The notes below the pieces were generated by a model. It was not told the origin of the DNA. It saw nothing but the letters and a program-made list of their open reading frames with translations, and ran no database searches. This document shows positions 43,742 to 61,527 of a stretch of DNA of 64,000 bases, in pieces (position 1 is the first letter of the stretch; each line of letters opens with the position of its first letter). The stretch is from assembly GCF_016734815.1 (NCBI RefSeq), contig NZ_JAERQF010000018.1, positions 1-64,000 of the forward strand. The letters run 5' to 3'. Origin of the DNA: Hymenobacter rubidus. GTDB taxonomy: Bacteria; Bacteroidota; Bacteroidia; Cytophagales; Hymenobacteraceae. A program made the translations under genes and the position numbers.

Positions 43742-46204
43742 CTATTCCTTTTCCCCCGCCCCACTCGCCACCACGTTCACGCGCACCTCGCCGAAGCCGA
43801 CGGGCACCACGAGGCTGGGCAGGGTGAGGCCCGTTTCCAGCGTGGCATCCGTCACGTTAGCAGCTTGGCCGTCGGCTTGCGCGGCGAGGGCGCCGGCCAC
43901 ACCGTGCAGCACCACGCGGTAGGTGGCGTAGCTGGGCGCGTAGTCGCCTTCGATGGCCTGGGTGAGTACGAGGCCCTCGGCGGAGCCGGTGACGGTGAAG
44001 CGGCGCACGGTTTTGTGGCCTTCGAAGTAGGCGTAGCCTTCGCCGCCGTCGTCGTAGAGGACGCTCTCGGCGGTGCCGTTTTTGTAGTACACGTGCAGGG
44101 TGAGCTCGGTGACGGGGGTTTCGCCCACGTACTGCATCACCGGCTGCATGGGCACCACCGCGCCGGCCTTGATGAAGAGCGGAATGCGGGTGAGGTCGGC
44201 GGCGGCCCAGACTTCGCTGCCGCCGGCCTGGGGCGTGTCGGTCCAGTAGTAGAACCAATCGCCGCGGGGCAGGTACATCCAGCGGCCATCGGCGCCGGGC
44301 GTGGTGATGGGGCAGACAAGCAGGTGGTCGCCGAGGCCGAATTCGGCCATGCGCAGGTAGGTTTCGGTGTCGTTCTGGTCGAGGAAGGTGAGCGGGCGCA
44401 GCATGGGCGTGCCCTTAGTGGCGTACTGCCAGAAGGCGGTGTACACGTAGGGCAGCAGGCGGTAGCGCAACTCGATGAAGGAGCGGGCCAAATCGGTCAC
44501 CTCGTCGCCGAAGCTCCAGGGCTCCTGGTCGCCGTGGTCGCCGGATGAGTGGGTGCGGAAGAACGGGTGGAAGGCCCCCAGGGCAATCCAGCGGGCGTAG
44601 AGCTCGCCGGTGGGCGTGTCGATGAAGCCGCCGATATCGGAGCCGATGAAGCTGAAGCCCGAGATGCTCAGGCGCTGGCACTGGATGTTGGCCAGCCAGA
44701 GGTGCTCCCAGCTGGCGATGTTGTCGCCGGTCCAGCCCGAGGAGTAGCGCTGGCCGCCGCTGTAGGTGCTGCGCGTGATGGTGAAGGGCCGGTTGGGGTA
44801 GCTGAACTTCTTCACGCCGTCGTTGGTGGCGCGGGCCATCTGCATGCCGTAGATGTTGTGGGCCTTCTGGTGCGAGGCCCAGTGGCCGTCGTACTCGAAG
44901 CGCACATCGGGCGGGAAAGTGCCTTTTTCGAATACCGCCGGCTCGTTCATGTCGTTCCACACGCCCTTCACGCCGATGTCCTGAATCAATTCCTGAAACA
45001 GCCCGGCCCACCACTCGCGCACCCGCGGCGCGGTGAAATCGGGGAAGTTGCAGAGGCCGGGCCACACGGAGCCTTTCATCAGCGGGCCGTCGGCGCGGCG
45101 GCAGAAGTAGTCGTTGGCCACGCCCTCCTTGTACACCGAATATTCGGGGTCAATCTTGATGCCGGGGTCGATTATGACGATGGTTTTGAAGCCGTCGGCG
45201 GCCAGCTCCTGCACCATGCGCTTGGGCTCGGGGAAGTGCGACTTGCTCCAGGTGAAGCAGCGGTAGCCCTCCATGTAGTCGATGTCGAGGTAAAGCGCGT
45301 CGCAGGGAATCTGGCGGTCGCGCAGGCCGCTGGCAATTTCCTTCACGTTGCTCTCCGGGAAGTAGCTCCACTTGCACTGGTGGTAGCCCAGCGTCCAGAG
45401 CGGCGGCAGCTCGGGCGGGCAGGTGAGCAGGGTGTATTCCTGGGTCACCTCCATCAGGGTGGGGCCGTAGATAAAGTAGTAGTTCAGCTCGCCGCCCTGG
45501 GCCCAGAAGCTGGTCACGTCGGCGCGCTCGGCCGCGAAGTCGAAGCTGGCCTTGAAGGTGTTGTCGAAGAAGATGCCGTGCCCGATTTTCTGGTGCAGCA
45601 CGTGGTAGAACGGGATGTTCTTATACAGCGGGTCGGAGCCCTTCACGTAGCCGTAGGTATCGGAGCCCCAGTTGGTGAAGCGCTTGCCGCGCAGGTTCAT
45701 GTTGTCGGGCTTGTCGCCGAGGCCGTAGTAGTGCACGCCGGCGGGCACCTGCTTGCTCATCTTCACGATGTCGTTGCCGGTGTCGTAGTCGTACTCCCAG
45801 TGGAAGCCCTTTTCGTCGTCGCTCAGGATGGTGCCGGAGCGGTCCAACACGCGGGCCTTCAGGTTTTCCTTCTGAATAATGCAGATAAGCCGGGCCGTGG
45901 TGAGGCGGTAATGGTCGGGCTTCTCGCGGAATTCCACCAGCGCCGGGGCCATGCGCGTAGTAGCGTCGGCCGGCACGGCGTAGGAGAAATCGGGGTTCAG
46001 CGGGCCGTCGGTGAGGTAGCGGAAGCGGAGGATTTTATCGGAGAGGACGTGCAATAAGAGCCGCACACCGTTCTGGCACACGAAGAGGAAGCGACTGTCG
46101 CCCAGCTCTTCGACGCGCAGCACCTCGCCGGGAAATTGCTCCTGGTGGCTTTGGGCCGCCAGGTCGTTCACCATATAGTTATTTTCCTGAATTGTATTAT
46201 CCAT
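43742..46204 (-). CDS. Glycoside hydrolase family 31 (alpha-glucosidase type)
   Basis: An 820-aa exo-alpha-glycosidase that releases glucose (or a related sugar) from starch or glycogen fragments. The GH31 catalytic pair is present: GVWNDMNEPAVF with the nucleophile Asp (about residue 418) and SSGWTGDNIASWEHL with the acid/base Asp (about 494). An N-terminal beta-domain starts at QFPGEVLRVEEL and C-terminal beta-domains follow. The ATG at 46204 is chosen; an ATG at 46174 (MVNDLAAQSH) is equally possible, and the frame up to 46357 has no signal peptide, so a cytoplasmic site is likely. The GT-like gene is divergent to it at 46430. Confidence 0.92.
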   Translation of the reverse strand: MDNTIQENNYMVNDLAAQSHQEQFPGEVLRVEELGDSRFLFVCQNGVRLLLHVLSDKILRFRYLTDGPLNPDFSYAVPADATTRMAPALVEFREKPDHYRLTTARLICIIQKENLKARVLDRSGTILSDDEKGFHWEYDYDTGNDIVKMSKQVPAGVHYYGLGDKPDNMNLRGKRFTNWGSDTYGYVKGSDPLYKNIPFYHVLHQKIGHGIFFDNTFKASFDFAAERADVTSFWAQGGELNYYFIYGPTLMEVTQEYTLLTCPPELPPLWTLGYHQCKWSYFPESNVKEIASGLRDRQIPCDALYLDIDYMEGYRCFTWSKSHFPEPKRMVQELAADGFKTIVIIDPGIKIDPEYSVYKEGVANDYFCRRADGPLMKGSVWPGLCNFPDFTAPRVREWWAGLFQELIQDIGVKGVWNDMNEPAVFEKGTFPPDVRFEYDGHWASHQKAHNIYGMQMARATNDGVKKFSYPNRPFTITRSTYSGGQRYSSGWTGDNIASWEHLWLANIQCQRLSISGFSFIGSDIGGFIDTPTGELYARWIALGAFHPFFRTHSSGDHGDQEPWSFGDEVTDLARSFIELRYRLLPYVYTAFWQYATKGTPMLRPLTFLDQNDTETYLRMAEFGLGDHLLVCPITTPGADGRWMYLPRGDWFYYWTDTPQAGGSEVWAAADLTRIPLFIKAGAVVPMQPVMQYVGETPVTELTLHVYYKNGTAESVLYDDGGEGYAYFEGHKTVRRFTVTGSAEGLVLTQAIEGDYAPSYATYRVVLHGVAGALAAQADGQAANVTDATLETGLTLPSLVVPVGFGEVRVNVVASGAGEKE

Positions 46205-46429: not shown

Positions 46430-47851
46430 ATGACCTCGCCCGAGTTTTCCGTACTGCTGCTAGCCTGGGATGACGCCGACCCTGGCGTGGCCGTACTCGG
46501 CGGGGCCGCCCTGCCTCCTACCCGCTCGCTGGTGTACCAATTGGCCGAACAGCATCCGGTACTGGCCTTCTACCCGCACCTGCCCACCCCCGAAACGCCG
46601 GCCGAAGCATCTCCGCGCGACGAGCCAACTTCGGCTCCTAACGATGCGCACGCGGCAGCCACCAGCCCTGTTGCACCGGATGCCCCCGACCAGCCCGGCG
46701 TGCGCCTATTGCCGGCCGCCACGCTTCCTCCGTCGGCAGCGAAACACCTTGGCGCAGCGCCCCGGTCCAGCATGATTGGCTTGTCGGAGCTGGAAACCAG
46801 CCGCGCCCCGCTGCCAGCCGACGGAGCTACGCTTCCCCTCGAAGGCGCACCGGTGCCCCCGCCCCAGCGCTGGGAGTTGCCGCCGCCAGCACTGCTCGGC
46901 CACAACCAATGGCCCGCAGGCGCCGAGCCCACCGCGCCCGATTACCACTGGCAGGCACCGGCCGAACCCTACGTAGGCGCGGGTGCGCTCAGCTCTTATC
47001 CGGCGCCCGTTGTTTACCCCGCCCCGCCGCCGGTCCCCGCTATAGTCCATGTCAGTCTGAAGGGAGCGCAAACGCCAACCACGCCGCCAGCGCAGGAGCC
47101 AGCTGCGCCGCCACTGAGCGAGCAGGAAACGGCTTCACCAGTTGGCGCCGTTGAGCTTCCTGCCAGTGAACCGACCGCCAGTCCGCCGCCCGCCACTGAG
47201 CCGCCGGCCACTGCCGACACCCACGACGCTAGCGCAACCGAACTGGCTACTATTCAGCATCCCGAGCTGCTTGATGAGCCCACGGAAGAAATAGGTCCCG
47301 CCGAAGCAAACGACATGTTTGCCCCCGAAGACGACATCGTGCCCGATGTGCTGCCGACAGCTGTTCCTGTTTCGCCCGCTGTTATTTCCGCTCCTGCACC
47401 AGCGCAACCGGCCGCAACGGTGGCTGCTGCCGTTGCTACACCGGCCCCGGTCGTGGTGCAACCTAAGTTAGATGGGCTGAATTTTCGGATGATTCAGTAC
47501 GCCCGCCGGGCGGCGCAGTTGGCCCAGTCCCGGTCCGAATTTGGGGTGATTTATGCGCCCAACTGGCCGGCCTGGCTGGCGGCGCAGGAAATCCGCAACA
47601 GTTCGCGCATGCCGCTGGTGCTGTACGTGGCCAGTCTGGTGGCCGACTTCACCGTTCCCGCCGAGCGCGGCTGGCTGCAGGAAGTGGAGCGCATGACCCT
47701 GCGCCGCGCCCACGTCATTCTGGTGCCCGACGAGGCCATCCGGCGGCGCCTGCACCTACTCTACCCGGACACCACCGGAAAAACCCGCGTAGTGGCCGCC
47801 GACGACGAAGACACCGTGCAACGCGTGCTGGGCGAAGTCGCGCTTTACTAG
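46430..47851 (+). CDS. Degenerate GT4-like protein with a very long Pro/Ala linker
   Basis: A 473-aa protein in three parts. Residues 6-52 (FSVLLLAWDD, then TRSLVYQLAEQHPVLAFYPH) and 347-473 (LNFRMIQYARRAAQLAQS, EFGVIYAPNWPAWLAAQEI, RAHVILVPDEAIRRRLHLLY) together match the N-terminal Rossmann half of Bacteroidota GT4 starch-synthase-like enzymes. The catalytic patterns have changed: the expected HAHDW reads YAPNW. The C-terminal nucleotide-sugar half is absent. Residues about 53-346 are a disordered Pro/Ala/Thr/Glu-rich insertion. It is therefore probably not a glycosyltransferase now, but a binding or scaffold protein. ATG at 46430 is chosen. It is divergent to GH31 and transcribed alone. 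The reading as GT-derived is inference from pattern only. Confidence 0.62.
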   Translation: MTSPEFSVLLLAWDDADPGVAVLGGAALPPTRSLVYQLAEQHPVLAFYPHLPTPETPAEASPRDEPTSAPNDAHAAATSPVAPDAPDQPGVRLLPAATLPPSAAKHLGAAPRSSMIGLSELETSRAPLPADGATLPLEGAPVPPPQRWELPPPALLGHNQWPAGAEPTAPDYHWQAPAEPYVGAGALSSYPAPVVYPAPPPVPAIVHVSLKGAQTPTTPPAQEPAAPPLSEQETASPVGAVELPASEPTASPPPATEPPATADTHDASATELATIQHPELLDEPTEEIGPAEANDMFAPEDDIVPDVLPTAVPVSPAVISAPAPAQPAATVAAAVATPAPVVVQPKLDGLNFRMIQYARRAAQLAQSRSEFGVIYAPNWPAWLAAQEIRNSSRMPLVLYVASLVADFTVPAERGWLQEVERMTLRRAHVILVPDEAIRRRLHLLYPDTTGKTRVVAADDEDTVQRVLGEVALY

Positions 47852-47874
47852 CTTTTTTTGCACAACAATACAGA

Positions 47875-47978
47875 AGTACGTCATGCAGAGCGCAGCGAAG
47901 CATCTCGCATGTGGTAGTAACTCAATCAAAGATTACTATGGCACGCGAGATGCTTCGCTGCGCTCTGCATGACGTTCT
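47875..47978. repeat. A-family palindromic repeat, copy A6
   Basis: AGTACGTCATGCAGAGCGCA and GCGAAGCATCTCGCATG pair with ACGCGAGATGCTTCGCTGCG and CTCTGCATGACGTTCT. It starts 24 bp after the stop of the GT-like gene. Confidence 0.92.
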
Positions 47979-48021
47979 TGTTCTGAATTATGACTAAGCA
48001 GCACCAGAAACCAACAGCCAT

Positions 48022-48492
48022 ATGCAGCCTGAACACGAATTTGAAGCCGTTTTAGAAGCCGGTGATGGGGACGGCGGGGTGTTCGTCGTGGTGCCTTTTT
48101 CGGTGCCCGAGGTGTACGGCACGCGCGGCCGGGTCCCCATCCAGGCTACTTTCGACGGCTACCCGTACCAGGGCAGCATCACGCCGCTCGGCGATGGCCA
48201 CCACGCCCTGCTCATCCTCAAGCAAATCCGCAAAGCCATCGACAAAACCGTGGGTGACACGGTGCGCGTGACCCTGAGCCGCGACGTGACCGAGCGCAAA
48301 ATGGAAGCCCCCGCCGACCTGGCCGAGCAGCTGGCCACCAACCCCAAAGCCGCTGCCTACTTCGCCAAGCTGGCCTACACCCACCAGCGCGAGTACATCA
48401 ACTGGCTCAAGGGCGCCAAAAAGCCCGAAACCCGCACCCGCCGCCTGGGCGAAATCGTGGCCATGCTGGCTCAGGGCCGCAAGCGCGGCTGA
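48022..48492 (+). CDS. DUF1905 plus YdeI/OmdA-like protein
   Basis: A 156-aa soluble protein in two halves. Residues about 5-95 fit DUF1905: VVPFSVPEVYGTRGRVPIQA and GHHALLILKQIRKAIDKTVG. Residues about 100-150 fit the YdeI/OmpD-associated (bacteriocin-protection) domain: LATNPKAAAYFAKLAYTHQR and YINWLKGAKKPETRTRRLGE. Members are widespread in Bacteroidota; the YdeI family was linked in E. coli to stress and antimicrobial peptide resistance, but no biochemical activity can be inferred. It starts 43 bp after repeat A6 and probably has its own promoter. Confidence 0.86.
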   Translation: MQPEHEFEAVLEAGDGDGGVFVVVPFSVPEVYGTRGRVPIQATFDGYPYQGSITPLGDGHHALLILKQIRKAIDKTVGDTVRVTLSRDVTERKMEAPADLAEQLATNPKAAAYFAKLAYTHQREYINWLKGAKKPETRTRRLGEIVAMLAQGRKRG

Positions 48493-48590: not shown

Positions 48591-51218
48591 ATGAGAGTAT
48601 TTATTACGCTGCTGATTCTGGGGCTCCTGTTTTGCCGGCCGGCTTACGCACAAGGCCCGAACGTTGACCCGTCGTTCATTAACACAGGGATTTACCGGCC
48701 CGGCGGGGTGGTGCAAGCGGTGCGCCAGCCCGATGGCAAAACGCTGCTGCTAGGCACCTTTAAGCGGGTGCTGCAGCAAGCTACCGGGACGCTGGTGCGG
48801 TTGATGCCCAACGGCACCCAGCTTGATACCGGGTTTCAGGCCAACGTGGCCGGTTTACAAGGGCCAGTCGACCACCTGGCCTTATTGCCCGACGGCAAGC
48901 TGCTGCTCTTTGATGACCGCAGCTTTGGTACGGTGGGCTCTTCCGAAACGCTGACGCTGGGCAGCGTGACGCGGCAAACGCTGCTACGGCTCAACGCCGA
49001 CGGCACGCCCGATGCGTCCTTCAACGCGCAGTTCACCAACTCCATGACGCTGCAACAGGTGGTACCGCAGCCCGATGGCAAGCTGCTGCTACTAGGCTTT
49101 TTCACCCCCAACGCTGGGCAAACTGGCCCGGTACTGATTCGCCTCAATGCCGATGGCAGTCGCGACCTCGGCTTTCAGGCCCCGGTGTTTAGTATCAATG
49201 GCATTGGCACCTACCCCAAATCCATTGCCTTGCAGCCCGACGGCAAGGTGCTGGCAACGGGCAACTTCGATGCGGTGGACGGGCAGCCCCAACAGGCCGT
49301 GGCCCGACTGTGGCCCAGCGGCGCGCTCGATACCAGCTTCACGGCGGCCGTGCCCACCGATGTGAGCGGCCGTAGCGTGGCGGTGCAGCCCGATGGCAAG
49401 CTGTTGCTGCTATGCGACGGCGGGCTCCCCTCTTATCCATCCGTCCGGCGGCTGCTGGCGAACGGGGCGGTTGATTCAGGTTTTCAATACGTCGGCCCGT
49501 CGTTGTTCTTTATGCCCGGCTACGTGCTGCCGCCGGTGGTGCAGCCCGATGGCCGGTTTCTGGTGGCTACGGCCAACGCGTTTTACAACGGGGCTTTTCT
49601 GGGAAGGCTGCTCCGCTTCCTGCCCACCGGCACGCTCGACCCTGCCTTCAACAACGCCGGGGCGCTTACCGGCCAAATCAACCGCCCCACGGTATACCCT
49701 GGTTCGGTGCAGTTGCTGGCCACTGGCCAATTGCTGGTAGCAGCCGGCCGCACCAGTTCTGCTCTCCCGCGCTTTCCGCCCCTGGCCACGTTTCTGCCCG
49801 TAGGCTTGGCGGTGCTCAATGCCGATGGCAGCTACGATGCCACATTTGCGCCCCTGATTCAGGACCTGGGCATCGTGAACGACCTTGCCCTACAGCCCGA
49901 TGGCAAAATTGTGCTGGGCGGCGACTTTTCGGAAATCAACGGCGTGGCCGTGCGCAACCTGGCCCGGCTGCAAGCCAATGGCCTGGTCGACCCTTCTTTT
50001 TCGGCCACGACCGATGGCGTGGTGAACACCCTCGCTTTGCAGACCGATGGCCAGGTGGTGGTGGGCGGCAGCTTCGACTTCCTGAGCGGCGTGGCCCTGC
50101 CCGGCCTGGGCCGGGTGCTGCCCACCGGCGCTCTCGACGCCGCCTTTGTACCCGCCCTCGCGGCCAATACGGCAAATGAGTCGTCAGAGGTACGGCGCTT
50201 GCTCGTGCGCTCCACGGGCGAGGTCATTATTAGCGGTACCCTCATTATTCAGCGCGGCAGCACCCCGGCGTACCTGACGCTTACCCAGCTGCAGGCCCTT
50301 ACCGGCCAGGAAGATACCGGCTTTCAGTCTACTGCCTTGAACTCCATCAGCATCTCGCACATGCTGCTGCAACCCAGTGGCAAGCTGGTGCTGGCCGGCA
50401 ATATTTCCAGTGGCCCGGCTTCTAATGCTCCCATGTGGCGGCTGCTGCCCAATGGAGCCTTGGATACGAGCTTTCCAATGCCCAATCTAATTGCCGATGT
50501 CGGGTTGACGCTGGCCCAGGATGGCGCGGGCCGGCTCTACCTTAGCAGTCAAGGCCGCGATGCGCCGGGCGCGGCAATTTTTTTCCGTAGCCTGACGCGG
50601 TACCTGGCCGATGGCCAACCCGACCCCACGTTTCAGGCCGTGCTGCCGGGGAGCGCGCCAACGGCAGTTGCCATTGCCGTGCAGCCCAATGGCCGGGTGC
50701 TACTCGGCGGGCAGTTGTCATCTAGTAGCAGCAGTTTCAATCCCAATCCGGAAGGCACCCTGCGCCTGCTGCCTACCGGTGCTGCTGACCCCAGCTACAA
50801 TCCCGCCAGCGGCCCTGTAGGTACACCCGGCTACAGTGGCAATGTGAACCGCTTGCTTATTCAGCCCAACGGCGCCATTCTGGCCGCCGGCTATTTTTCG
50901 CAGGTGGGCACCCAGTCCATCAACGGCTTGGTGCGCCTGCTCGACGCCAACGTGCTGAGCGTGCGCGCCCAGCCCGCCACGCCGGCCACCGCCGCCTGGC
51001 CCGTGCCGGCCCGCGGCGTATTGCACCTGGCCCTGGAGGCCGCTGCCCGCCCGCAGCGGGTGGAACTGCTCGACGCCCTGGGCCGGCCCGTGCTAGCGCA
51101 GGCCGTGGCCCAACCGGACATGAGCCTGAACACGGCCTCCCTGCCACCGGGGGTGTACCTGCTGCGCGTGCAGTATGCGCAAGGCGGGGCCGTGCTGCGC
51201 CGTGTGGTACTCGAATAA
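48591..51218 (+). CDS. Delta-60 repeat surface protein with T9SS sorting domain
   Basis: An 875-aa secreted protein. Signal peptide MRVFITLLILGLLFCRPAYA, cut before QGPNVDPSF. The body is built from about 14 repeats of the delta-60 type, each with a core such as QPDGKILLGGDF followed by a LxxLxxNGxxDxxF segment; they should form a beta-propeller or a beta-solenoid-like array. The last ~75 residues hold PVPARGVLHLALEAAARP, VELLDALGRPVLAQAV, LPPGVYLLRVQY and the end RRVVLE, a T9SS type A sorting domain. Role on the cell surface is unknown; adhesion is a guess. The amylase gene begins 127 bp later. Confidence 0.87.
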   Translation: MRVFITLLILGLLFCRPAYAQGPNVDPSFINTGIYRPGGVVQAVRQPDGKTLLLGTFKRVLQQATGTLVRLMPNGTQLDTGFQANVAGLQGPVDHLALLPDGKLLLFDDRSFGTVGSSETLTLGSVTRQTLLRLNADGTPDASFNAQFTNSMTLQQVVPQPDGKLLLLGFFTPNAGQTGPVLIRLNADGSRDLGFQAPVFSINGIGTYPKSIALQPDGKVLATGNFDAVDGQPQQAVARLWPSGALDTSFTAAVPTDVSGRSVAVQPDGKLLLLCDGGLPSYPSVRRLLANGAVDSGFQYVGPSLFFMPGYVLPPVVQPDGRFLVATANAFYNGAFLGRLLRFLPTGTLDPAFNNAGALTGQINRPTVYPGSVQLLATGQLLVAAGRTSSALPRFPPLATFLPVGLAVLNADGSYDATFAPLIQDLGIVNDLALQPDGKIVLGGDFSEINGVAVRNLARLQANGLVDPSFSATTDGVVNTLALQTDGQVVVGGSFDFLSGVALPGLGRVLPTGALDAAFVPALAANTANESSEVRRLLVRSTGEVIISGTLIIQRGSTPAYLTLTQLQALTGQEDTGFQSTALNSISISHMLLQPSGKLVLAGNISSGPASNAPMWRLLPNGALDTSFPMPNLIADVGLTLAQDGAGRLYLSSQGRDAPGAAIFFRSLTRYLADGQPDPTFQAVLPGSAPTAVAIAVQPNGRVLLGGQLSSSSSSFNPNPEGTLRLLPTGAADPSYNPASGPVGTPGYSGNVNRLLIQPNGAILAAGYFSQVGTQSINGLVRLLDANVLSVRAQPATPATAAWPVPARGVLHLALEAAARPQRVELLDALGRPVLAQAVAQPDMSLNTASLPPGVYLLRVQYAQGGAVLRRVVLE

Positions 51219-51269
51219 GCCGGCACCGGAACAACATTTAGCGCCATCGGCCGCATCGAAAGTGGCCCC

Positions 51270-51277
51270 TACCTTTG
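51270..51277 (+). promoter_or_regulatory. Promoter -7 element for the amylase gene (exact TAnnTTTG)
   Basis: TACCTTTG, an exact match, 68 bp before the ATG at 51346 and at the left edge of a hairpin. Confidence 0.45.
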
Positions 51278-51309
51278 AAGCCCCATCTCCTCATAAGGAG
51301 GCGGGGCTT
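51278..51309. terminator. Hairpin at the amylase leader
   Basis: AAGCCCCATCTCCT pairs with AGGAGGCGGGGCTT, two mismatches, then a short TTTC. It could stop transcripts of the delta-60 gene or form the 5' end of the amylase mRNA. Confidence 0.5.
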
Positions 51310-51345
51310 TCACGTTCCGGTATCCCACCCAGCCACTTGCCTGCC

Positions 51346-53232
51346 ATGAAAAAAGAATTTCTGCTGTCCGTTTTCTGCCTGCTAATGCCGGTACTGGCCG
51401 ACGCCCAAACCACCAGCATCGACCGCGTGAACCCCACCAATTGGTGGGTGGGCATGAAAAACCCCAACGTGCAGCTGCTGTTGCATGGGCCGGGCGCGGG
51501 CACGCTGGCCTACACGGTCAGCTACCCCGGGGTGAAACTCGTGAAAAGTAGCACGGTCGAGAACCCCAACTACGCCTTTTTGGACCTTACCATCTCCCCA
51601 ACGGCCAAGCCCGGCCGGGTGCCGCTGGTGGGCAAAAAAGGCAGTCAGACCGTGACGCAAACCTGGGAATTAAAAGCCCGCGACAACTCGCCCAAGGCTC
51701 AGGGCGTGACGGCCGCCGACTTCATCTACGTGGCCATGGTGGACCGCTTTGCCAATGGCGACCCGAGCAACGACAAGTTTGCCGACATGCGCGACCCGAG
51801 CATGGACCGCACCAACCCATTCCTGCGCCACGGCGGCGATTTGGCCGGCGTGGCGCAGCATTTTCCCTACATCAAAGACCTGGGCGCGACGGCCGTGTGG
51901 CTAACCCCGGTGACGGAAAACGACCAGCCGCTCACCAACGAGGGCGGCACCATGCGGGCCTCCTACCACGGTTTTGGCTTCACGGACCAGTATCAGATTG
52001 ACCGGCGCTTCGGTGGCAACGCGGGCTACAAAAGCTACGTGCAGCAGGCCCACGCCGCCGGTCTGAAGGTGGTGCAGGATGCCGTGTACAACCACGTGGG
52101 CAACACGCACTGGATTTTGCAGGACCTGCCCATGAAAAGCTGGCTGCACCAGTGGTCCACCTACACCAACACCAGCTACAAGTACCAGCCCATCACCGAC
52201 CCGCACGCCGCGCAGAGCGACCGCAAAGTCACCCTCGACGGCTGGTTTGTGCCCTTCCTGCCCGACCTCAATCAGCAGAACCCCTACGTGGCCAACTACC
52301 TGATTGAAAACGCCATCTGGAACGTGGAAAACTTCGGCATCGATGCCTACCGCATCGATACCTACCTGTATAACGACCAGCCGTTTATGAACCGCTGCAA
52401 CGCGGCGCTGCTGGCCGAGTACCCGCGTATTCACATTTTCGGCGAGTCGGCGGTGACCAATGTGGTAGACCAGGCCTACTACACCCGCAACAAAATCGAC
52501 TTTCCTTTTAAGTCGAATCAGCCCGGCGGACTCGATTTCGTGCTCGAAGGCGCCATGCTGGCCGCCTTGAAGGAAGTGGGCACGCCCGCCACCACCGGCT
52601 TCGACGGCGGCCCGCACCGCTTCTACCAGTCCCTGGCCCAGGACGTGGTGTACCAGGACCCCACCAAGCTCGTCACCTTCCTCGACAACTTTGACCACGA
52701 CCGGTACCTGTCCGTCATCGGCGACGACTTCGACCGCTACAAAATGGGCCTGACCTGGCTGCTCACCACGCGCGGCATCCCGAGCATGTATTACGGCACC
52801 GAAATCCTCATGAAGAACTTCAAAGACCCCACCGATGCCGAGGTGCGCAAGGATTTCCCCGGCGGCTGGCCCGGCGACAAGGAGAACAAGTTCAACGCCG
52901 CCGGCCGCTCGGCCAAGGAAAACGAGGCCTTCGACTTCGTGAAAAAACTCGCTACCTACCGCCGCGACCAAAAGGTGCTGCACGATGGCAAGCTGATGCA
53001 ATACCTGCCCGAAAACGGCCTCTACGTGTATTTCCGCTACGATGCCACCGGCACCGTGATGGTGGCCTCTAACACCACCGACAAGCCCGCCGCGCTGCCT
53101 ACCGCCCGGTTTTCGGAGCGCATGACTGGTTTTACAAAGGCCCGCAATGCGCTGACGGGCGAAAGCCTGAGCAACCTTGCGACGCTGCAGCTGCCCGCCA
53201 AAACCGCCGTGGTACTGGAGCTGGGGAAGTAG
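51346..53232 (+). CDS. GH13 amylase, cyclomaltodextrinase/neopullulanase type, secreted
   Basis: A 628-aa periplasmic or surface starch-degrading enzyme. The ATG at 51346 gives a signal peptide (KKEFLLSVFCLLMPVLADAQ). An N-terminal beta-domain (about 23-120, with NPTNWWVGMKNPNVQLLLHG) fits the cyclomaltodextrinase N-domain. The GH13 barrel follows: YVAMVDRFANGD, VVQDAVYNHVGN, DAYRIDTYLYN (nucleophile Asp, about residue 338), HIFGESAV (acid/base Glu, about 365) and TFLDNFDHDR (about 446-455), with a C-terminal beta-domain. It resembles SusA-type neopullulanases. No SusC/D genes are near it in this window. Confidence 0.9.
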   Translation: MKKEFLLSVFCLLMPVLADAQTTSIDRVNPTNWWVGMKNPNVQLLLHGPGAGTLAYTVSYPGVKLVKSSTVENPNYAFLDLTISPTAKPGRVPLVGKKGSQTVTQTWELKARDNSPKAQGVTAADFIYVAMVDRFANGDPSNDKFADMRDPSMDRTNPFLRHGGDLAGVAQHFPYIKDLGATAVWLTPVTENDQPLTNEGGTMRASYHGFGFTDQYQIDRRFGGNAGYKSYVQQAHAAGLKVVQDAVYNHVGNTHWILQDLPMKSWLHQWSTYTNTSYKYQPITDPHAAQSDRKVTLDGWFVPFLPDLNQQNPYVANYLIENAIWNVENFGIDAYRIDTYLYNDQPFMNRCNAALLAEYPRIHIFGESAVTNVVDQAYYTRNKIDFPFKSNQPGGLDFVLEGAMLAALKEVGTPATTGFDGGPHRFYQSLAQDVVYQDPTKLVTFLDNFDHDRYLSVIGDDFDRYKMGLTWLLTTRGIPSMYYGTEILMKNFKDPTDAEVRKDFPGGWPGDKENKFNAAGRSAKENEAFDFVKKLATYRRDQKVLHDGKLMQYLPENGLYVYFRYDATGTVMVASNTTDKPAALPTARFSERMTGFTKARNALTGESLSNLATLQLPAKTAVVLELGK

Positions 53233-53240
53233 CACACCAG

Positions 53241-54461
53241 CTACTCGCGTACAAGCCGGCAGGTAGCAGAATTTCCTTGCACGGTGTAGGCTCGCACCAA
53301 GTAGATACCTGCGGGCTTGGCCTGTAAATCGAGCTGCAGGCTGGTTGTACCGGCCGTTACATTTTGCGTCATCACCTGTCGGCCCATTACATCGAGCACT
53401 TCAACCGTGCGTATTTCACTGGAAAAGTCGAGCGTGCTAACTCCCGTAGTGCTCGGGTTGGGGTAGGCTTGCAACACCGGCGCGGCCGGCGCGACAGCGG
53501 TAGCCAGCACGGCCCCCACATTGGCTACCCACATATCGGCCAGCGTGGAGGAGTTGGCCGAGGCCGTGTTGCCGCCCCACACGTAAAGTTGGCTGTTGCG
53601 AACGGCCGCAGCAGCATTACGGCGCGGCGGCAGGTTCGAAGTGAAGGTGCGCAGCTGGCCGGTGCGGGTATTATAGGCCGCCAGGTAGCTTTGGTTGTTG
53701 AAATCTCCCACCAGCCACAGCCATTCGCCCTGCACCGTCACTGCTTGGTTGGAGACAGTGGTGGGCAACGTGCCCACGGCCTGCCAGGTGTTGGAGGCAA
53801 TGTCATAGGCATCGACGCGGGCCGAGTTGATGACGCCATTGTAGCCGCCAATAGCGTAAACCTTGCCGTTGACAGCCGCGCCGCCATACACCACTTTGGC
53901 TTCCGGCATGGGTGCCAGCGTGGCCCACGTGTCGGTGGCCGCGTTGTAGGACCGTAGCTGGTTGGTGTAGCTGCCGCTGGCCAGCTGGCCGCCGTAGGTG
54001 TAAATGATGTTGCCCCAAACCGCAGCGGCCGCACTCACCGCCGGTACCGGGTTGGTGTACGAGGGGCCGATGCTGCCGCTGCTCGTCAATACGGTTTGCA
54101 TGTTGGACACGGGGGTGCCAAGGGTGCTCGTGGCCCCGCTCAATATGTAGAGCAAGGCTTGGCCGCTGCCATTAGTGGCCGGCACCATGGTGGCCCAACG
54201 CTGCGACGCCAGAAAACTGACAGCCAGACCCGGTGTCCAAACATCAAGCGTTGGCTCGTAGCGATAAACGTCCTGATTAAACGAGGAAGCCGGACTGCCG
54301 CCACCCGCCATGTAAAAGGCCGAGGCATCCTGGCAGTAAGCCATGCCGTAGCGCCCGCCGCTGGGAAGTGCATTCAGCGGACTAAACGTGAGCGAGGTTT
54401 GGGCCGAAGCCGCGTGACCAACGACGAGCAAGAGGCTGCGGAGGAAGTATCTGTGTTTCAT
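53241..54461 (-). CDS. Kelch-repeat protein with T9SS sorting domain
   Basis: A 406-aa secreted protein. Signal peptide MKHRYFLRSLLLVVGHAASA, cut before Q. The body is a Kelch-type beta-propeller: at least five blades with IIYTYGGQLAS, VYAIGGYNGV, YDIASNTWQAVGTL and LYVWGGNTASA. The tail holds VLQAYPNPSTTGVSTLDF, VEVLDVMGRQVMTQNV, KPAGIYLVRAYTVQG and the end CRLVRE, a T9SS type A sorting domain. The stop lies 8 bp from the stop of the amylase gene (convergent). Binding target unknown. Confidence 0.87.
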   Translation of the reverse strand: MKHRYFLRSLLLVVGHAASAQTSLTFSPLNALPSGGRYGMAYCQDASAFYMAGGGSPASSFNQDVYRYEPTLDVWTPGLAVSFLASQRWATMVPATNGSGQALLYILSGATSTLGTPVSNMQTVLTSSGSIGPSYTNPVPAVSAAAAVWGNIIYTYGGQLASGSYTNQLRSYNAATDTWATLAPMPEAKVVYGGAAVNGKVYAIGGYNGVINSARVDAYDIASNTWQAVGTLPTTVSNQAVTVQGEWLWLVGDFNNQSYLAAYNTRTGQLRTFTSNLPPRRNAAAAVRNSQLYVWGGNTASANSSTLADMWVANVGAVLATAVAPAAPVLQAYPNPSTTGVSTLDFSSEIRTVEVLDVMGRQVMTQNVTAGTTSLQLDLQAKPAGIYLVRAYTVQGNSATCRLVRE

Positions 54462-54530
54462 AAAAGAAGCGGGTATTTACATAGCAATTATACTATATAA
54501 ATACTTGGCCTCCTAATTATTCGTGCCATT

Positions 54531-54574
54531 ACCTCCCCCCGCGCCAGCACCAGCGCCACCCGGCTGGGCACGTA
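54531..54574 (-). pseudogene. Fragment of the glgB 3' end (44-bp copy)
   Basis: These 44 bp equal 59457-59500, the last codons and stop region of glgB, except for one base, which turns the stop codon into GAG. It is a remnant of a second copy or of a recombination event, and lies upstream of the DUF1080 gene. The DNA between it and the DUF1080 ATG shows nothing else. Confidence 0.75.
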
Positions 54575-54741
54575 CGCCGAGGCAAAACTCGGCTAGACCA
54601 CCTCCGTTTGCTTTTTCCTTAAAGCTACATATCTGTTTTGCTTTGGGGAGTGCGTTCAAGGTATCAAAGGCGCTGGGTGGCGGGGCAACCGGCGCCGCTG
54701 CCTTGCACCACCCCCGTTCGAATGTTTTCTTATCTTTCCGC

Positions 54742-56127
54742 ATGCTTAGCCCCTTGAAAAAACGCATCGCCCTGGCCACCGGAATCGTGGCGGCGATGGT
54801 TTGTAATAGCCCTGCCCTGGCCCAAGCGGCGGGTTCCTGGCAGAATCTGTTCGATGGCAAAAGCCTGAACGGGTGGAAGCGCGTAGCGGGCACGGCCGAC
54901 TACAAGGTAGAAAACGGCGTCATTGTGGGCACGACGGTGCTAAACTCGGGCAACACGTTTCTAGTCACCGAGAAGGAATACGGCGACTTCGTGCTGGAGC
55001 TGGACGTGCTGATTGACAGCCCGACCAGCAACTCGGGCATTCAGACGCGCAGCCATTTCAATACGGAGGGCCACGCGGGCAAGGTGTACGGCCGGCAGGT
55101 CGAGATTGACCCGTCGGAACGAAGCTGGTCGGGCGGCATCTACGACGAGGCGCGGCGGCAGTGGTTGTACCCGCTCGATTTGCACCCGCAGGCCAAATCG
55201 GTGTTTAAAATCGGCCAGTACAACCACGTCAAAGTGGAGTGCATTGGCAATGAGATGAAGACCTGGCTGAACAACACGCCCATTGCCTACGTGGTGGACC
55301 CCGTGGACCCCAAAGGCTTCATCGGCCTGCAAGTGCACGCGGTGACGACCAAGGAGCAGGAAGGCAAGAAGGTGTACTTCAAGAACATCCGCATCAATAC
55401 CACCGACCTGAAGCCCAGCGCATTTCCGGCCGATATCTACGTGGTGAACTTCGTACCCAACTACCTGAATGCGTATGAAAAGGCGCACGGCTGGCGGCTG
55501 CTGTTCGATGGCAAAACCTCGGCCGGCTGGCGCAGCGCCAGGGGCCCGGCCTTTCCGGCCAGGGGCTGGGAAGTGGGCGACGGCACGATGACGGTGCAGC
55601 CTTCGGAGGGCAAGGAGGCGGCCAACGGCGGCGACATCGTGACCAACGAGGAGTTCAAGGCCTTCGACCTGTCGTTTGAGTTCAAGCTGACGCCGGGGGC
55701 CAACAGCGGCGTGAAATACTTCGTGACGCTGGACGAAAAAACCGAGGGCTCGGCCATCGGCCTGGAGTACCAGGTGCTCGACGATGCCCTGCACCCCGAT
55801 GCCAAGCTGGGCCGCGACGGCGACCGGACCCTGGCCTCGCTCTACGACCTGATTCGGGCCGATAAAAACCCGCGCTTCATCCACCCCATCGGCGAATGGA
55901 ACGTGGGCCGCGTGGTGGTGTACCCCGACAACCGCGTGGAGCACTACCTCAACGGCAGCAAAGTGCTGGAATACACCCGCGGCTCGAAGGAATTTCAGGC
56001 GCTGGTGGCCATCAGCAAGTACAATGTGTGGCCGAATTTCGGGCTGGCGCCGCAGGGGCACATTCTCCTGCAGGACCACGGCAACCGGGTGTCGTTTCGT
56101 AGCATTAAAATCAAGACGCTCAAGTAG
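54742..56127 (+). CDS. Double DUF1080 (3-keto-disaccharide hydrolase-like) protein, secreted
   Basis: A 461-aa protein with two concanavalin-like DUF1080/PF06439 domains. The first (about 27-220) has WQNLFDGKSLNGWKR, YGDFVLELDVLIDSPTSNSG and GFIGLQVHAV; the second (about 245-460) has WRLLFDGKTSAGWR, FDLSFEFKLTPGANSGVKYF and the C-terminal KVLEYTRGSKEFQ. The start is ATG 54742, giving a signal peptide that ends at ALAQA; the frame is open from 54523, but that part is translated leader. PF06439 proteins cleave 3-keto-glycosides in some Bacteroidota. The Gfo/Idh/MocA and DUF6807 genes downstream support such a pathway, but which substrate is not clear. Confidence 0.87.
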   Translation: MLSPLKKRIALATGIVAAMVCNSPALAQAAGSWQNLFDGKSLNGWKRVAGTADYKVENGVIVGTTVLNSGNTFLVTEKEYGDFVLELDVLIDSPTSNSGIQTRSHFNTEGHAGKVYGRQVEIDPSERSWSGGIYDEARRQWLYPLDLHPQAKSVFKIGQYNHVKVECIGNEMKTWLNNTPIAYVVDPVDPKGFIGLQVHAVTTKEQEGKKVYFKNIRINTTDLKPSAFPADIYVVNFVPNYLNAYEKAHGWRLLFDGKTSAGWRSARGPAFPARGWEVGDGTMTVQPSEGKEAANGGDIVTNEEFKAFDLSFEFKLTPGANSGVKYFVTLDEKTEGSAIGLEYQVLDDALHPDAKLGRDGDRTLASLYDLIRADKNPRFIHPIGEWNVGRVVVYPDNRVEHYLNGSKVLEYTRGSKEFQALVAISKYNVWPNFGLAPQGHILLQDHGNRVSFRSIKIKTLK

Positions 56128-56147
56128 TAATTCTCTATACACTGGCG

Positions 56148-56235
56148 GTCATGCAGAGCGCAGCGAAGCATCTTTACCGCAGCGGTAATCTGATTTACTT
56201 CCGAGGTAAAGATGCTTCGCTGCGCTCTGCATGAC
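56148..56235. repeat. A-family palindromic repeat, copy A7
   Basis: GTCATGCAGAGCGCAGCGAA and GCATCTTTACC pair with GGTAAAGATGCTTCGCTGCG and CTCTGCATGAC. It starts 20 bp after the DUF1080 stop and separates it from the next gene of the cassette. Confidence 0.9.
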
Positions 56236-56287
56236 TGCCTTTGAGCAGGCCCTAACCAACCATCCTCATACTCCAACCAGAATTCCC

Positions 56288-57658
56288 ATGTCGCACGAAG
56301 AACCTAATCCCCGCCGCCTGTTCCTCAAGCAAACGGCGCTGGCCAGCGCCGGGGTGCTGCTCGCACCCTCTATGGCGTGGTCGGCTAGCAGCTACCGGCG
56401 CATTGTGGGGGCCAACGACCGGGTGCGCGTGGGCGTGGTCGGCTTTTCGGACCGCCACCGCAGCTCGCACATTCCCAGCTTCCTGAACCATTACAAGGAG
56501 CTGAATTTCGACGTGGTGGGCGTGTCCGACATCTGGAAAAAGCGGCGCGAAGAAGGCGCGGCCACCTGGAAAGAGAAGCTGGGCCACGACGTGACGGCCT
56601 ACCGCAACAACGAGGAGATGTACGACAAGAAAGCCGTGGACGCGGTTTTTGTGAGCACCGCCGACTTCCAGCACGCCCTGCACGCCATCGAGGCCGTGAA
56701 AGCGGGCTGCGACGTGTACTGCGAAAAGCCCTTCGCCGAAACGATGGAGGACAACCGAGCGGCGCTGAAAGCCATCAAAGCCTCGAAGCAGATTGTGCAG
56801 ATTGGCTCGCAGCGGCGCAGCGGGGCCAACTACCACGCGGCCGATGCCTACATCAAATCGGGCAAATTCGGCGACATCAAAATGGTGGAGCTGACCTGGA
56901 ACGTGAACCAGCCCGGCCGCTGGCGCCGCCCCGACCTGGTGCCCCAGCTGAAAGAAGCCGATACCGACTGGAAACGCTTCCTGATGAACCGTCCCGCCGA
57001 CGCCTTCGACGCCCGCAAATACCTGGAGTTCCGCCTGTTCTGGCCCTATTCCTCGGGCCTGCCGGGCCAGTGGATGAGCCACCAGATTGACACCGTGCAC
57101 TGGTTTACGGGCCTGCAGCATCCGCGCAGCGTGGTGGCCAACGGCGGCATCTACATGTGGAAAGACGGCCGCAAAAACTGGGACACCCTCACGGCGGTGT
57201 TCGACTACGGCCCCCAGAACGACCCCAGCAACGGCTTCCAGGTCACCTTCGGCTCACGGATGGACAACGGCGACGAGCACCCGGCCGAAATCTACTATTC
57301 CAACGGCGGCGAGTTGAATTTGAACACCAACACGGTATCGCCGCGCGGCGGGCTTACCAAGAAGTTTGCCGACGACATGCACATCCAGCCGTTTTTGCTG
57401 CCCGAGTCGAGCTTGTCGGCTGTGGAGCCGGTTATCGCCTCGGCCAATACCGGCGGCGACAAGCTGACCTCGAACCACGTCCGCAACTGGATGGAGTGCG
57501 TGCGTAGCCGCCAGCAGCCCCACGCGCCCGTGGAGGCCGGCTACAGCCATTCCATTGCCACCATTATGACCAACGCGGCCGTGCATTCGGGCATGAAAGC
57601 CACCTTCGACGAGCAGACGCAGGAGGTGATGGTGGGCGGCAAGGTGTTCAAATATTAA
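56288..57658 (+). CDS. Gfo/Idh/MocA family oxidoreductase, exported
   Basis: A 456-aa NAD(P)-dependent sugar oxidoreductase. The N-terminus (RRLFLKQTALASAG, about 9-22) is a signal for export, Tat-like in that it has two arginines. The Rossmann start VRVGVVGFSDRHRSSHIP and the motif VYCEKPFAETMEDN (catalytic Lys) are typical of the family; the C-terminal domain has WMSHQIDTVHWF. The start is ATG 56288; the frame from 56231 would read through the end of repeat A7. In the 3-keto-glycoside route such enzymes oxidise the sugar at C3. DUF6807 gene follows 20 bp later, probably in one operon. Confidence 0.88.
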   Translation: MSHEEPNPRRLFLKQTALASAGVLLAPSMAWSASSYRRIVGANDRVRVGVVGFSDRHRSSHIPSFLNHYKELNFDVVGVSDIWKKRREEGAATWKEKLGHDVTAYRNNEEMYDKKAVDAVFVSTADFQHALHAIEAVKAGCDVYCEKPFAETMEDNRAALKAIKASKQIVQIGSQRRSGANYHAADAYIKSGKFGDIKMVELTWNVNQPGRWRRPDLVPQLKEADTDWKRFLMNRPADAFDARKYLEFRLFWPYSSGLPGQWMSHQIDTVHWFTGLQHPRSVVANGGIYMWKDGRKNWDTLTAVFDYGPQNDPSNGFQVTFGSRMDNGDEHPAEIYYSNGGELNLNTNTVSPRGGLTKKFADDMHIQPFLLPESSLSAVEPVIASANTGGDKLTSNHVRNWMECVRSRQQPHAPVEAGYSHSIATIMTNAAVHSGMKATFDEQTQEVMVGGKVFKY

Positions 57659-57678
57659 CCCGTTTTCAGCCTTTCCCG

Positions 57679-58740
57679 ATGAAGAAATTTGCTCTCCCCG
57701 GCGGCGTGCTGCTGCTTGCGCTGGCTGGCTTTCCCGATGCGCAGGCCCAGAAAGCCGAGCCGGTACGCGTGACCAAAGACGCCAAAGCCAAGAAGATTGA
57801 TGTGTATGTAGGCAAGGAGTTATTCACCAGCTTCCTGTATCCCGATTCGCTGGAAAAGCCCGTGCTCTACCCGTTGCACGCCGCCAACGGCACCGTGGTC
57901 ACGCGCGGCTTCCCGCTGAACCCGCAGCCCGGCGACCCCACCGACCACCCGCACCACCTCGGCCTGTGGTTCAACTTTGAAAACGTGAACGGGCTGGATT
58001 TCTGGAACAACTCCTACGCCATTGCCAAGGAGAAAAAAGCCACCTACGGCTGGATAAAAACCGATAAGATTCTGACCACGACCAGCGGCCCCACCGGCGT
58101 GCTGGCCTACCACGCCAACTGGACCAACCAGCAAAACGAGGTACTGCTGGAAGAAACCACCCGCTTCGAGTTCAGCGGCACCGGCCGGGCCCATACCATC
58201 GACCGGGTGACGACCCTCACCGCGGCGCGGGAAGTCACCTTCACCGACGCCAAAGACGGCCTGCTGGGCCTGCGCCTGGCCCACGCGCTGCAAATCCCCG
58301 CCGACCAGGACCAGAAATTTACCGACAGCAAAGGCCTCGTGACGGTGGTAAAAGCCGGCACCGACCACGTGGCCAACGGTACCTACCTCACCAGCGCCGG
58401 CAAGCGCGGCAACGACGCCTGGAGCACCCGCGGCACCTGGTGCAAAGCCTACGGCAAAATGGGCGCCGACTCCGTCAGCGTTACCATCATCGACCACCCC
58501 AAAAACCCGAACTACCCCACCTTCTGGCACGCCCGCGGCTACGGCTTATTTGCCGCCAACCCGCTGGGCGAGAAGATATTTACCAACGGCAAATCGGCGA
58601 AAAATCTGCAACTGAAAAAAGGCGAATCGGTGACGTTCCGCTACCGCGTGCTGATTGACGACGGCCGCACTACCCCGACAACCAACCAGCTAAACGCCGC
58701 CGCTGCTGCCTTCGCCCAGAAGCCCGTCGCAGCCAAGTAG
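57679..58740 (+). CDS. PmoA/DUF6807 family secreted protein
   Basis: A 353-aa periplasmic protein; signal peptide MKKFALPGGVLLLALAGFPD ending at AQAQ. The domain is of the DUF6807/PmoA type: ELFTSFLYPDSLEKPVLYPL, DHPHHLGLWFNFENVNGLDF (two His-rich loops), FWHARGYGLFAANPLGEKIF and LKKGESVTFRYRVLIDDG. The family occurs next to Gfo/Idh/MocA and DUF1080 genes in sugar degradation loci; its reaction is unknown, though the name methane oxygenase PmoA in databases is not supported by function. The gene is last in the three-gene cassette. Confidence 0.86.
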   Translation: MKKFALPGGVLLLALAGFPDAQAQKAEPVRVTKDAKAKKIDVYVGKELFTSFLYPDSLEKPVLYPLHAANGTVVTRGFPLNPQPGDPTDHPHHLGLWFNFENVNGLDFWNNSYAIAKEKKATYGWIKTDKILTTTSGPTGVLAYHANWTNQQNEVLLEETTRFEFSGTGRAHTIDRVTTLTAAREVTFTDAKDGLLGLRLAHALQIPADQDQKFTDSKGLVTVVKAGTDHVANGTYLTSAGKRGNDAWSTRGTWCKAYGKMGADSVSVTIIDHPKNPNYPTFWHARGYGLFAANPLGEKIFTNGKSAKNLQLKKGESVTFRYRVLIDDGRTTPTTNQLNAAAAAFAQKPVAAK

Positions 58741-58842
58741 CGCGGCGCTGGTTGTAGGCAACTCTGGGTGCCGCACCTGCTTCTACGTTGCCATGGCCTG
58801 CATCGACGGCATGACGTAAATCTGCCTCCAGGACCCCGTCAG

Positions 58843-59458: not shown

Positions 59459-61507
59459 CTACCCCCGCGCCAGCACCAGCGCCACCCGGCTGGGCACGTA
59501 GAGGCTTAGCTGGTGCTCATACGTCTCGTACTCGAACGCCTCGTCGGGCCGGTCGAAGCCGCCGAACTGGGCGTTGTCCGACGACAGCGCCACGCGGTAT
59601 TTGCCTTCCTCGGGCACCCAGAAGCGGTAATCCGTCAGGCTGCGCTCGACGTGGAAGTTTAGGATGAACACCAGCCCGGCGCGGGCAAAGGCCAGCACCT
59701 GGTTGGTTTCGTCGTGCTTGAGCAGCTGAGCGGGGGCGGCGGCCAGCAGGTGGGTGTTTTTGGCCAGATGAATCAGGGCCTTGTCGAAGGCGCCCATCTG
59801 GTAAAATTTCAGGTCGGGGTTGTCGCCCAGGCTCCACTGGCGGCGGGCAAAGTGGTGGCTCCAGCCGTTGCCCTCGCGCGGGAAATCGACCCATTCGGGG
59901 TGGCCAAATTCGTTGCCGATGAAGGTGAGGTAGCCCTCGCCCCCGGCCGCCAGCGTGAGCAGCCGGATGAGCTTGTGCAGGGCCAGGGCCCGCGCCGCGG
60001 CGGGGTCCGGGTCGCCAATCTGCATGTGGGTGTAAATCCCGGCATCGAACAGCCAGTGCGCAATGGTTTTGTCGCCCACCAGGGCCTGGTCGTGGCTTTC
60101 GGCGTAGGCAATGGTTTTTTCGCCCAGGCGGCGGTTGGCCAGGGTGTACCACAGGTTGCCGAGGGGCCAGCTTTCGTCGGGCGTGTGCTTGAGCAGCTTT
60201 ATCCAATAGTCCGGAATGCCCATGGCCAGGCGGTAGTCGAACCCGATGCCGCCTTCCACAGTGGGCCGGCACAGGCCGGGCATGCCGCTCATGTCCTCGG
60301 CCACCAGCAAGGCGCCTTTCTTGAACTCGTGGGCCAGGGTGGTGGCCAGCTGCAGGTACAGAATGGCGTCCTCATCGGCCCCCGCGCCGAAGTAGTTGTC
60401 GTAGCTCATAAAAGCCACGCCCTCGCCGTGATGGTGGTAGAGCATGCTGGTCACGCCATCGAAGCGGAAGCCGTCGAAGTGGTATTCTTCGAGCCAGAAG
60501 CGCAGGTTGCTGAGCAGGAACTGCTGCACCTCGGGCCGGCCGTAGTCGAACAGCTTGCTGTCCCAGCCGGGGTGGTTGCCGCGGGCACCTTTGTGGAAGT
60601 AAAGGTTGCCGGAGCCGTCGAAATCGGCCAGGCCTTCGGCCTCGTTTTTCACGGCGTGCGAATGCACGATGTCGAGCAGCACGGCAATGCCGCGGCGGTG
60701 GGCTTCGTTAACGAGAAACTTCAGGTCTTCGGGCGTGCCGAAGCGCGAGCTGGCCGCAAACAGGTTGGCCACGTGGTAGCCAAAGGAGCCGTAGTATGGG
60801 TGCTCCATCACGGCCATAAGCTGCACGGTGTTGTAGCCGCCGGCCTCGATGCGGGGCAGGATATTTTCGGCAAACTCCCGGTAAGAGCCCACCCGGCCAT
60901 CCTCGGTGGCCATGCCCACGTGGGCCTCGTAGATGAGCGGCTCCGCTACCGCCTTGGCGGGCTTAAACTTCTGGTCGGTCCAGACAAACGGCGTGTCGGG
61001 CCGCCAAACCTGGCCGGCAAAATCCCGGGTGCTCACGTCCTGCACGGCGCGACGCAGGGTGGCCGGCAGCCGGTCTTTGCCCTGGCCGTTGGCCACCACG
61101 TGCACCTTAAACCGGCTGCCGTGGGTAAGGCGCTGGTCGAACTCAGCATCCGGCAAAAACGCTTCCCACACGCCAAATTCCAGCTTGTGCAGCGGCGTGG
61201 CCTGCCGGTCCCAGCCGTTGAAATCCCCGACCAGCGACAGCGCCTCGGCACCGGGGGCCCACTCGCGGTACACCCAGCCGCCGCGGGCGGCGTCGTGGTT
61301 CAGGCCCAGCTGCTGGTGGGCGGTAGCAAAGTTCAGCAAAGAGCCGTGGTAATGCTTGATTTCGGCCAGCCGGGCCTGCAAGCGGGCCATACGGGCCCGC
61401 AGGATGGGCTCGTAGGGCGTCAGCCAAGTGTCGCTCTTGACCAGGGGCAGCGGGGCGGGGCGCTGGAGCTTGACGGCGGCGGGGGCAGTGGGTTTCGACT
61501 TGGCCAT
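59459..61507 (-). CDS. glgB: 1,4-alpha-glucan branching enzyme, eukaryote-like GH13_8 type
   Basis: Makes alpha-1,6 branches in glycogen in the cytoplasm; 682 aa. The N-terminal CBM48-like domain has REWAPGAEALSLVGDFNGWD. The GH13 barrel has HSHAVKNEAEGLADFDGS, DGFRFDGVTSMLYHHHGEG (nucleophile Asp, about residue 350) and ADEDAILYLQLA. These stretches match eukaryotic branching enzymes (GBE1/Glc3 type) better than E. coli GlgB, a subfamily also found in some bacteria. The C-terminal beta-domain ends VPSRVALVLARG. The start is ATG 61507; 28 residues upstream in frame do not fit. A promoter-like TACTTTTG lies 20 bp upstream. Its 3' end is copied at 54531. Confidence 0.93.
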   Translation of the reverse strand: MAKSKPTAPAAVKLQRPAPLPLVKSDTWLTPYEPILRARMARLQARLAEIKHYHGSLLNFATAHQQLGLNHDAARGGWVYREWAPGAEALSLVGDFNGWDRQATPLHKLEFGVWEAFLPDAEFDQRLTHGSRFKVHVVANGQGKDRLPATLRRAVQDVSTRDFAGQVWRPDTPFVWTDQKFKPAKAVAEPLIYEAHVGMATEDGRVGSYREFAENILPRIEAGGYNTVQLMAVMEHPYYGSFGYHVANLFAASSRFGTPEDLKFLVNEAHRRGIAVLLDIVHSHAVKNEAEGLADFDGSGNLYFHKGARGNHPGWDSKLFDYGRPEVQQFLLSNLRFWLEEYHFDGFRFDGVTSMLYHHHGEGVAFMSYDNYFGAGADEDAILYLQLATTLAHEFKKGALLVAEDMSGMPGLCRPTVEGGIGFDYRLAMGIPDYWIKLLKHTPDESWPLGNLWYTLANRRLGEKTIAYAESHDQALVGDKTIAHWLFDAGIYTHMQIGDPDPAAARALALHKLIRLLTLAAGGEGYLTFIGNEFGHPEWVDFPREGNGWSHHFARRQWSLGDNPDLKFYQMGAFDKALIHLAKNTHLLAAAPAQLLKHDETNQVLAFARAGLVFILNFHVERSLTDYRFWVPEEGKYRVALSSDNAQFGGFDRPDEAFEYETYEHQLSLYVPSRVALVLARG

Positions 61508-61527
61508 GATGCGGAAAAGGGTTGGCT

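Follow-up and report, generated by a model that had tools for sequence, protein, structure and literature searches.

The focal gene of the window, by which the whole 64,000-nt stretch of Hymenobacter rubidus DNA analyzed here is meant, encodes a protein that is one half of a GT-B glycosyltransferase (Table 1). Sequence, synteny, phylogenetic tree, and predicted fold together make it nearly certain that a GT4 enzyme of full length, encoded at a GH31-GT4-glgB locus, was its ancestor by vertical descent, and that the protein is now a catalytically dead half. The best explanation of the whole, to which a probability of roughly 0.6 is assigned, joins this dead GT4 half to a presumed accessory role in GT3-based glycogen synthesis. 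Taken by itself, a function as a non-catalytic accessory of glycogen metabolism has about an even chance of being correct.

Table 1. Features of the focal gene and of its neighbors, in window coordinates.
Feature	Coordinates	Strand	Basis or remark
GH31 alpha-glucosidase-like gene, divergent neighbor	43742..46204	-	start placed at MDNTIQEN
Focal gene, half glycosyltransferase (GT-B N-domain, disordered insert, C-terminal helix)	46430..47851	+	473 aa ORF
Residues 1-52: opening strand FSVLLLAWDDA, helix, second Rossmann strand	46430..46585	+	AF2 E8-11, H31-41, E44-48; alignment
Residues ~88-124: third folded piece, strands 91-93 and 114-117, helix 118-123	46691..46801	+	AF2 model, alignment
Residues ~125-345: Pro/Ala-rich low-confidence linker	46802..47464	+	block pLDDT ~38-63, composition
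Residues 174-183, WQAPAEPYVG: linker PxxPYxG motif	46949..46978	+	71/71 proteins
EEIGPAEAND: short acidic linker motif	47285..47314	+	E292 at least 90% conserved, alignment
Residues 346-455: Rossmann domain, second part (PF13579/PF13439)	47465..47794	+	Pfam, AF2 model
Residues 460-472: C-terminal helix, corresponding to the final helix in complete GT-B enzymes	47807..47845	+	AF2, structural alignment
DUF1905/OmdA (YdeI-like) gene, conserved downstream neighbor	48022..48492	+	profile match, synteny
glgB branching enzyme gene, ancestral convergent neighbor, displaced here by insertion	59465..61525	-

Two AlphaFold2 models, one of the window protein and one of its short-linker orthologue from H. 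crusticola (L133, 304 aa), were computed with input alignments of native orthologues. In the H. crusticola model (pTM 0.73), most of the Rossmann domain has pLDDT 71-97, and the linker is of low confidence. In the window model (pTM 0.60), strands were predicted at residues 8-11, 44-48, 91-93, 114-117, 373-376, 396-399, 429-432, and 451-454, followed by the C-terminal helix, and confidence was low between residues ~125 and 345. The first-pass annotation had described a broken-up GT-B N-domain in two pieces, separated by a disordered linker of ~290 residues. The fold was confirmed, but the domain is made up of three pieces (1-52, ~88-124, and 346-473), and the true disorder is limited to ~220 residues. 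The elements at 91-93, 101-104, 114-117, and 118-123, which lie inside the linker as originally claimed, form strands or helices with block pLDDT 75-91, and the ~88-124 piece corresponds in the alignment to the ancestral segment V.GLN..DL.

Comparison of the window model with the GT-B N-domain, a check that the same annotation had proposed, gave Z scores of 16.6-18.7 with 166-191 residues aligned to GT-B enzymes (VIA-align). The highest was obtained with MshA (Z 18.7, 191 residues), followed by GlgM (Z 18.2), the sucrose-phosphate synthase construct 6ldq (Z 17.7, 166/187 residues), and Pyrococcus glycogen synthase (Z 16.6); the L133 model matched GlgM with Z 19.8 over 177 residues. With both models, the alignments run out to where the full-length targets end, at their C-termini, indicating that the C-terminal helix has been kept and the intervening C-domain removed. 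The 6ldq construct, which by its title comprises residues 27-220 plus 406-426, has this same architecture of N-domain and C-terminal helix.

In profile searches, the last 133 residues alone matched PF13579 (E 1.9e-7) and PF13439 (E 1.6e-6) with scores that passed the gathering cut-offs; the whole 473-aa protein fell slightly short of the cut-offs of these two families. The focal protein has no PF08323 (GT5) match in Pfam, no match in NCBIfam, and no match among PDB sequences by phmmer. The weak whole-protein Pfam scores and the missing PDB match are what a chance resemblance, arising from a low-complexity protein unrelated to GT-B enzymes, would predict. However, the fold match at Z ~18, the unbroken sequence intermediates described below, and a locus identical to that of the full-length GT4 leave this explanation a negligible probability. 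The occurrence of orthologues across the genus (117/120 genomes) likewise argues that the Pfam resemblance is not due to chance, and the idea was rejected on the orthologues, the intermediates, and the fold match.

The ancestry of the gene was traced through six genera of one family, labeled g1 (Hymenobacter) and g2 to g6. In the sister genera g4 and g6, the corresponding locus carries a full-length GT4 of 440-488 aa with both PF13439 and PF00534, in the gene order GH31< GT4> glgB<; these enzymes have a GWE(F/D)(P/Q)P opening, a GG(L/V)G loop, and YAHDW. An equivalent full-length enzyme with H(A/C)HDW was found across the order, where it adjoins GH31 in family f15; in several genomes it is followed by a gene of ~400-430 aa, which in the single case scanned was identified as GH57 (PF03065, E 4e-65). 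The window protein shares with these Cytophagales enzymes beside GH31/GH57 ("GWEFPP" type, GlgM-/MshA-like GT-B fold) the N-domain and the GH31 side of the locus, and in the sister genera glgB is also near. Shared sequence features include the GWD/GWE opening, the V.GL.. strand, the P..PY segment, the IQYAR helix, DW..(F/W)LAG, and PLVLHVHSL, and the alignment runs through an unbroken series of intermediates between the full-length GT4 and the half protein. The window protein differs in lacking the C-terminal Rossmann domain, the GGxG loop, and the second His of HAHDW, and in carrying the long disordered insert. The parent enzymes (GWEFPP...GGLG...H(A/C)HDW) score best with GT4 models; thus, of the starch-synthase-like GT4 descent suggested at first reading, the GT4 part stands, and a GT5 starch synthase is not the parent.

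The halved form is found in g1 and g5 with the locus kept, consisting of a divergent GH31, the half gene, DUF1905/OmdA, and a convergent glgB. In g4, halved copies have also arisen, in which the last helix (W..T....I......) was kept and the entire C-domain is gone. The tree of the shared domain requires two separate changes from full length to half, one in g1 plus g5 and one in g4, both forced by well-supported branches, so that halving took place at least twice in the family. Some g4 genomes possess a full-length copy together with extra, unlinked half paralogues; in G143 and G131 these are represented by L201, L202, and L203, and one of their neighborhoods recurs between species.

The loss of catalysis is consistent throughout the genus. 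The second His of HAHDW was absent from all 69 readable Hymenobacter proteins, the focal protein having YAPNW at this site in the 346-455 part, and GGxG near the opening strand was found in none of 70, so that the ancestral donor loop is gone from the region of residues 1-52. The C-terminal nucleotide-sugar domain (PF00534, E-x7-E) is absent, and in the alignment the protein ends after the N-domain, with 94-110 residues following WPxWLA in 71 proteins. These observations bear out the earlier claim that the sugar-nucleotide half is missing. Of the proposed "pseudoenzyme or scaffold", the former is well supported by the sequence, and a role as scaffold is putative.

Split GT-B enzymes of the Alg13/Alg14 type exist, with the two halves on separate polypeptides, and the protein is exactly an N-domain, which would suit one subunit of such an enzyme (Alg14 with Alg13 style) whose donor half is encoded elsewhere. 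An active split enzyme, however, should retain GGxG and the catalytic His, both of which are lost. No C-terminal GT half lies directly downstream of the focal gene, where the next gene is DUF1905/OmdA, and in a search of the organism's own genome no free C-half was found, the full-length profile recovering, besides the single-copy focal gene, only frames of 384-430 aa of the ordinary GT4 type. The split-enzyme idea, extremely improbable on these grounds, was rejected for want of a free C-half in the own genome.

Of the 120 genomes of the genus, 117 encode an orthologue, among them every one of the 114 of high quality, which makes this a core gene rather than an oddity of a single strain. Pooled dN/dS, calculated from 14 independent close species pairs after the saturated all-congener values had been set aside, was 0.22 for residues 1-52, 0.31 for 88-124, and 0.26 for 346-455; in the linker, where the alignment is unsure, it was 0.43. 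Linker length varies between species, giving total protein lengths of 304-534 aa. The linker is more than mere filler, as judged from the conservation of PxxPYxG. This motif was present in all 71 proteins, 26 of which carry two or three copies, compared with an expected 0.005 per protein in shuffled linkers. P177, P180, Y181, and G183 are invariant in a 53-sequence alignment, and the motif aligns with a "VPANLFPY"-like segment of the parent enzyme. A scan of the own genome with the fuller form, WxxPxxPY(hydrophobic)G, returned only the focal gene.

These data also bear on the view that the gene is a functionless, decaying remnant of the former enzyme. Loss of the catalytic half, the fast-changing linker, and low identity between species would fit such a remnant, but the gene is carried by every high-quality genome, the two main folded parts evolve at dN/dS ~0.22-0.26, fold residues and the linker motif are invariant, the fold is predicted with high confidence, and the frames are open. 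Decay is therefore very unlikely, being contradicted by this constraint.

The earlier annotation had placed the gene divergent to a GH31 and on the same arm of the window as GH13 and glgB; these neighbors were found as described, with GH13 at 51403-53229. It had also proposed to look for orthologues beside GH31 or glgB in other Hymenobacter genomes, and these exist throughout the genus: of 36 readable loci, 34 have GH31 alongside and 26 have glgB no more than five ORFs away. In most of the genus OmdA and glgB are near neighbors, unlike in the window's clade, where ~11 kb (~48591-59400) lies between them, containing the cyclomaltodextrinase-like GH13, a kelch-like gene, an oxidoreductase, and others.

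The link to glycogen comes from the distribution of GT3 glycogen synthase among 80 genomes of the family. GT3 was found in 55 of 55 genomes from g1, g4, g5, and g6, the genera in which the GT4 or half-GT gene is present, and in 0 of 25 from g2 and g3, where that gene is absent. In g6, GT3 adjoins the GH31-GT4-glgB cluster. Against the link, the one GT3 gene of the H. rubidus genome is on a contig other than that of the window, and its glgB lies 11 kb from the focal gene. The GH57 companion known elsewhere in the order is missing in nearly all members of g1, g4, g5, and g6. This co-occurrence suggests a role for the retained half in glycogen metabolism based on GT3, as a genus-level correlation over six genera, behind which there is perhaps a single loss event; the conserved neighborhood could itself reflect vertical inertia. 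In g2 and g3, which lack both GT3 and the GT4 or half-GT gene, a GH57 of ~800-880 aa was found in nearly every member sampled. These genera have perhaps switched to a pathway of the GlgE type, which has been described for Pontibacter (PMC11206854).

A different reading of the locus is that the protein is a repurposed pseudo-glycosyltransferase with a role outside glycogen, for example as a regulator or adaptor of the adjacent DUF1905/OmdA protein, its proximity to GH31 being due to inheritance only. The DUF1905/OmdA gene follows the half-GT at nearly all g1 and g5 loci; none was observed at the loci of g4 and g6, genera with a still whole or an independently halved enzyme. The loss of catalytic and donor-loop residues is compatible with an adaptor, and a single frame that joins the two genes in one genome also speaks for it. 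The strict genus-level co-occurrence with GT3, however, and a GH31/glgB-flanked position that is older than the halving, argue against this reading, which is considered unlikely, though a serious competitor. The joined frame is found in G010 (L046, 8143-9996, + strand), a single-contig genome, in which the half-GT and DUF1905/OmdA form one continuous frame of 618 codons, possibly a natural fusion.

The favored reading starts from the loss, by the enzyme encoded between GH31 and glgB, of the C-terminal Rossmann domain, the donor glycine loop, and the catalytic His. What was retained is the N-terminal Rossmann domain, with the C-terminal helix closing it. An internal loop expanded into the disordered Pro/Ala linker, in which PxxPYxG occurs one to three times. 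On this reading, the half would be a non-enzymatic accessory of glycogen synthesis by GT3. In GT-B synthases, a large share of the acceptor side lies in the N-domain, and the nucleotide sugar belongs to the C-domain; retention of the N-domain only would fit a protein that holds a glucan or a partner enzyme but transfers no sugar. The folded half may do so through its old acceptor side, although glucan binding is only putative, since part of the ancestral acceptor region, the catalytic His, has been lost. A disordered loop with a repeatable motif would fit the docking of another protein, and such docking may gather the synthase, the branching enzyme or GH31, or assist the start of a glycogen particle. 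A more specific version, proposed only tentatively, is a non-enzymatic factor that organizes or initiates glycogen, derived from a GT4 halved twice, with an acceptor-side domain and a PxxPYxG docking loop, as a bacterial counterpart of plant SS5. How glycogen particles are started and shaped in bacteria that have no glycogenin-like protein is poorly understood. A genus core gene that is the non-donor half of a GT4, halved twice and accompanied by GT3 each time, points to a non-catalytic function, perhaps one already present in the intact GT4 enzyme. For archaeal glycogen loci, what GT4 enzymes do there has been explicitly called open (PMC11046441).

The first-pass annotation knew of no description of such an architecture, but N-half-only GT-B proteins have precedents in plant SS5 and in a GT5 fragment of Bacteroidota. 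Plant STARCH SYNTHASE5 (SS5, or SSV), which has a GT5 domain and lacks the GT1 domain, promotes starch granule initiation in a non-enzymatic role (PMC8396644, PMC11809589). Like the window protein, it consists of the N-terminal GT-B half only and derives from a complete synthase-type glycosyltransferase, and it may be regarded as the closest working analogue. It is, however, a eukaryotic protein of GT5 descent, so that its likeness to the GT4-derived window protein is one of fold class. A GlgA-GT5 fragment is conserved in Bacteroidetes (reviewed in PMC11046441), and is likewise the N-half only of a GT-B synthase, but it belongs to PF08323, occupies another locus, and has no long disordered insert, whereas the window protein matches PF13439/PF13579. 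The H. rubidus genome has a gene of this kind next to panC (C22:214711-215388; L261 1378-2190, - strand), a separate gene that encodes a 270-aa PF08323 GT5 N-half, so that this genome has two halved GT-B proteins of independent origin. Alg13/Alg14-type enzymes share the division of a GT-B fold between polypeptides, and differ in that the window protein has lost its catalytic residues and that no C-half partner was found in its own genome. Halved GT-B proteins are therefore already known as a kind, and what is new here is that the protein descends from a GT4, that halving was repeated, that a docking-type motif is conserved, and that the gene is present genus-wide. Within the literature collection searched, no paper was found on Hymenobacter with glycogen and glycosyltransferase, or with pseudoenzyme.

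A long inverted repeat, with arms of ~47-53 nt and the core CATGCAGAGCGCAGCGAAGCATCTCGC, lies between the focal and OmdA genes (window positions 47874-47979). An inverted repeat with the same core is found at 5981-6086, and weaker copies occur near 56150-56233, 12266, and 29317. The element is a REP-like hairpin.
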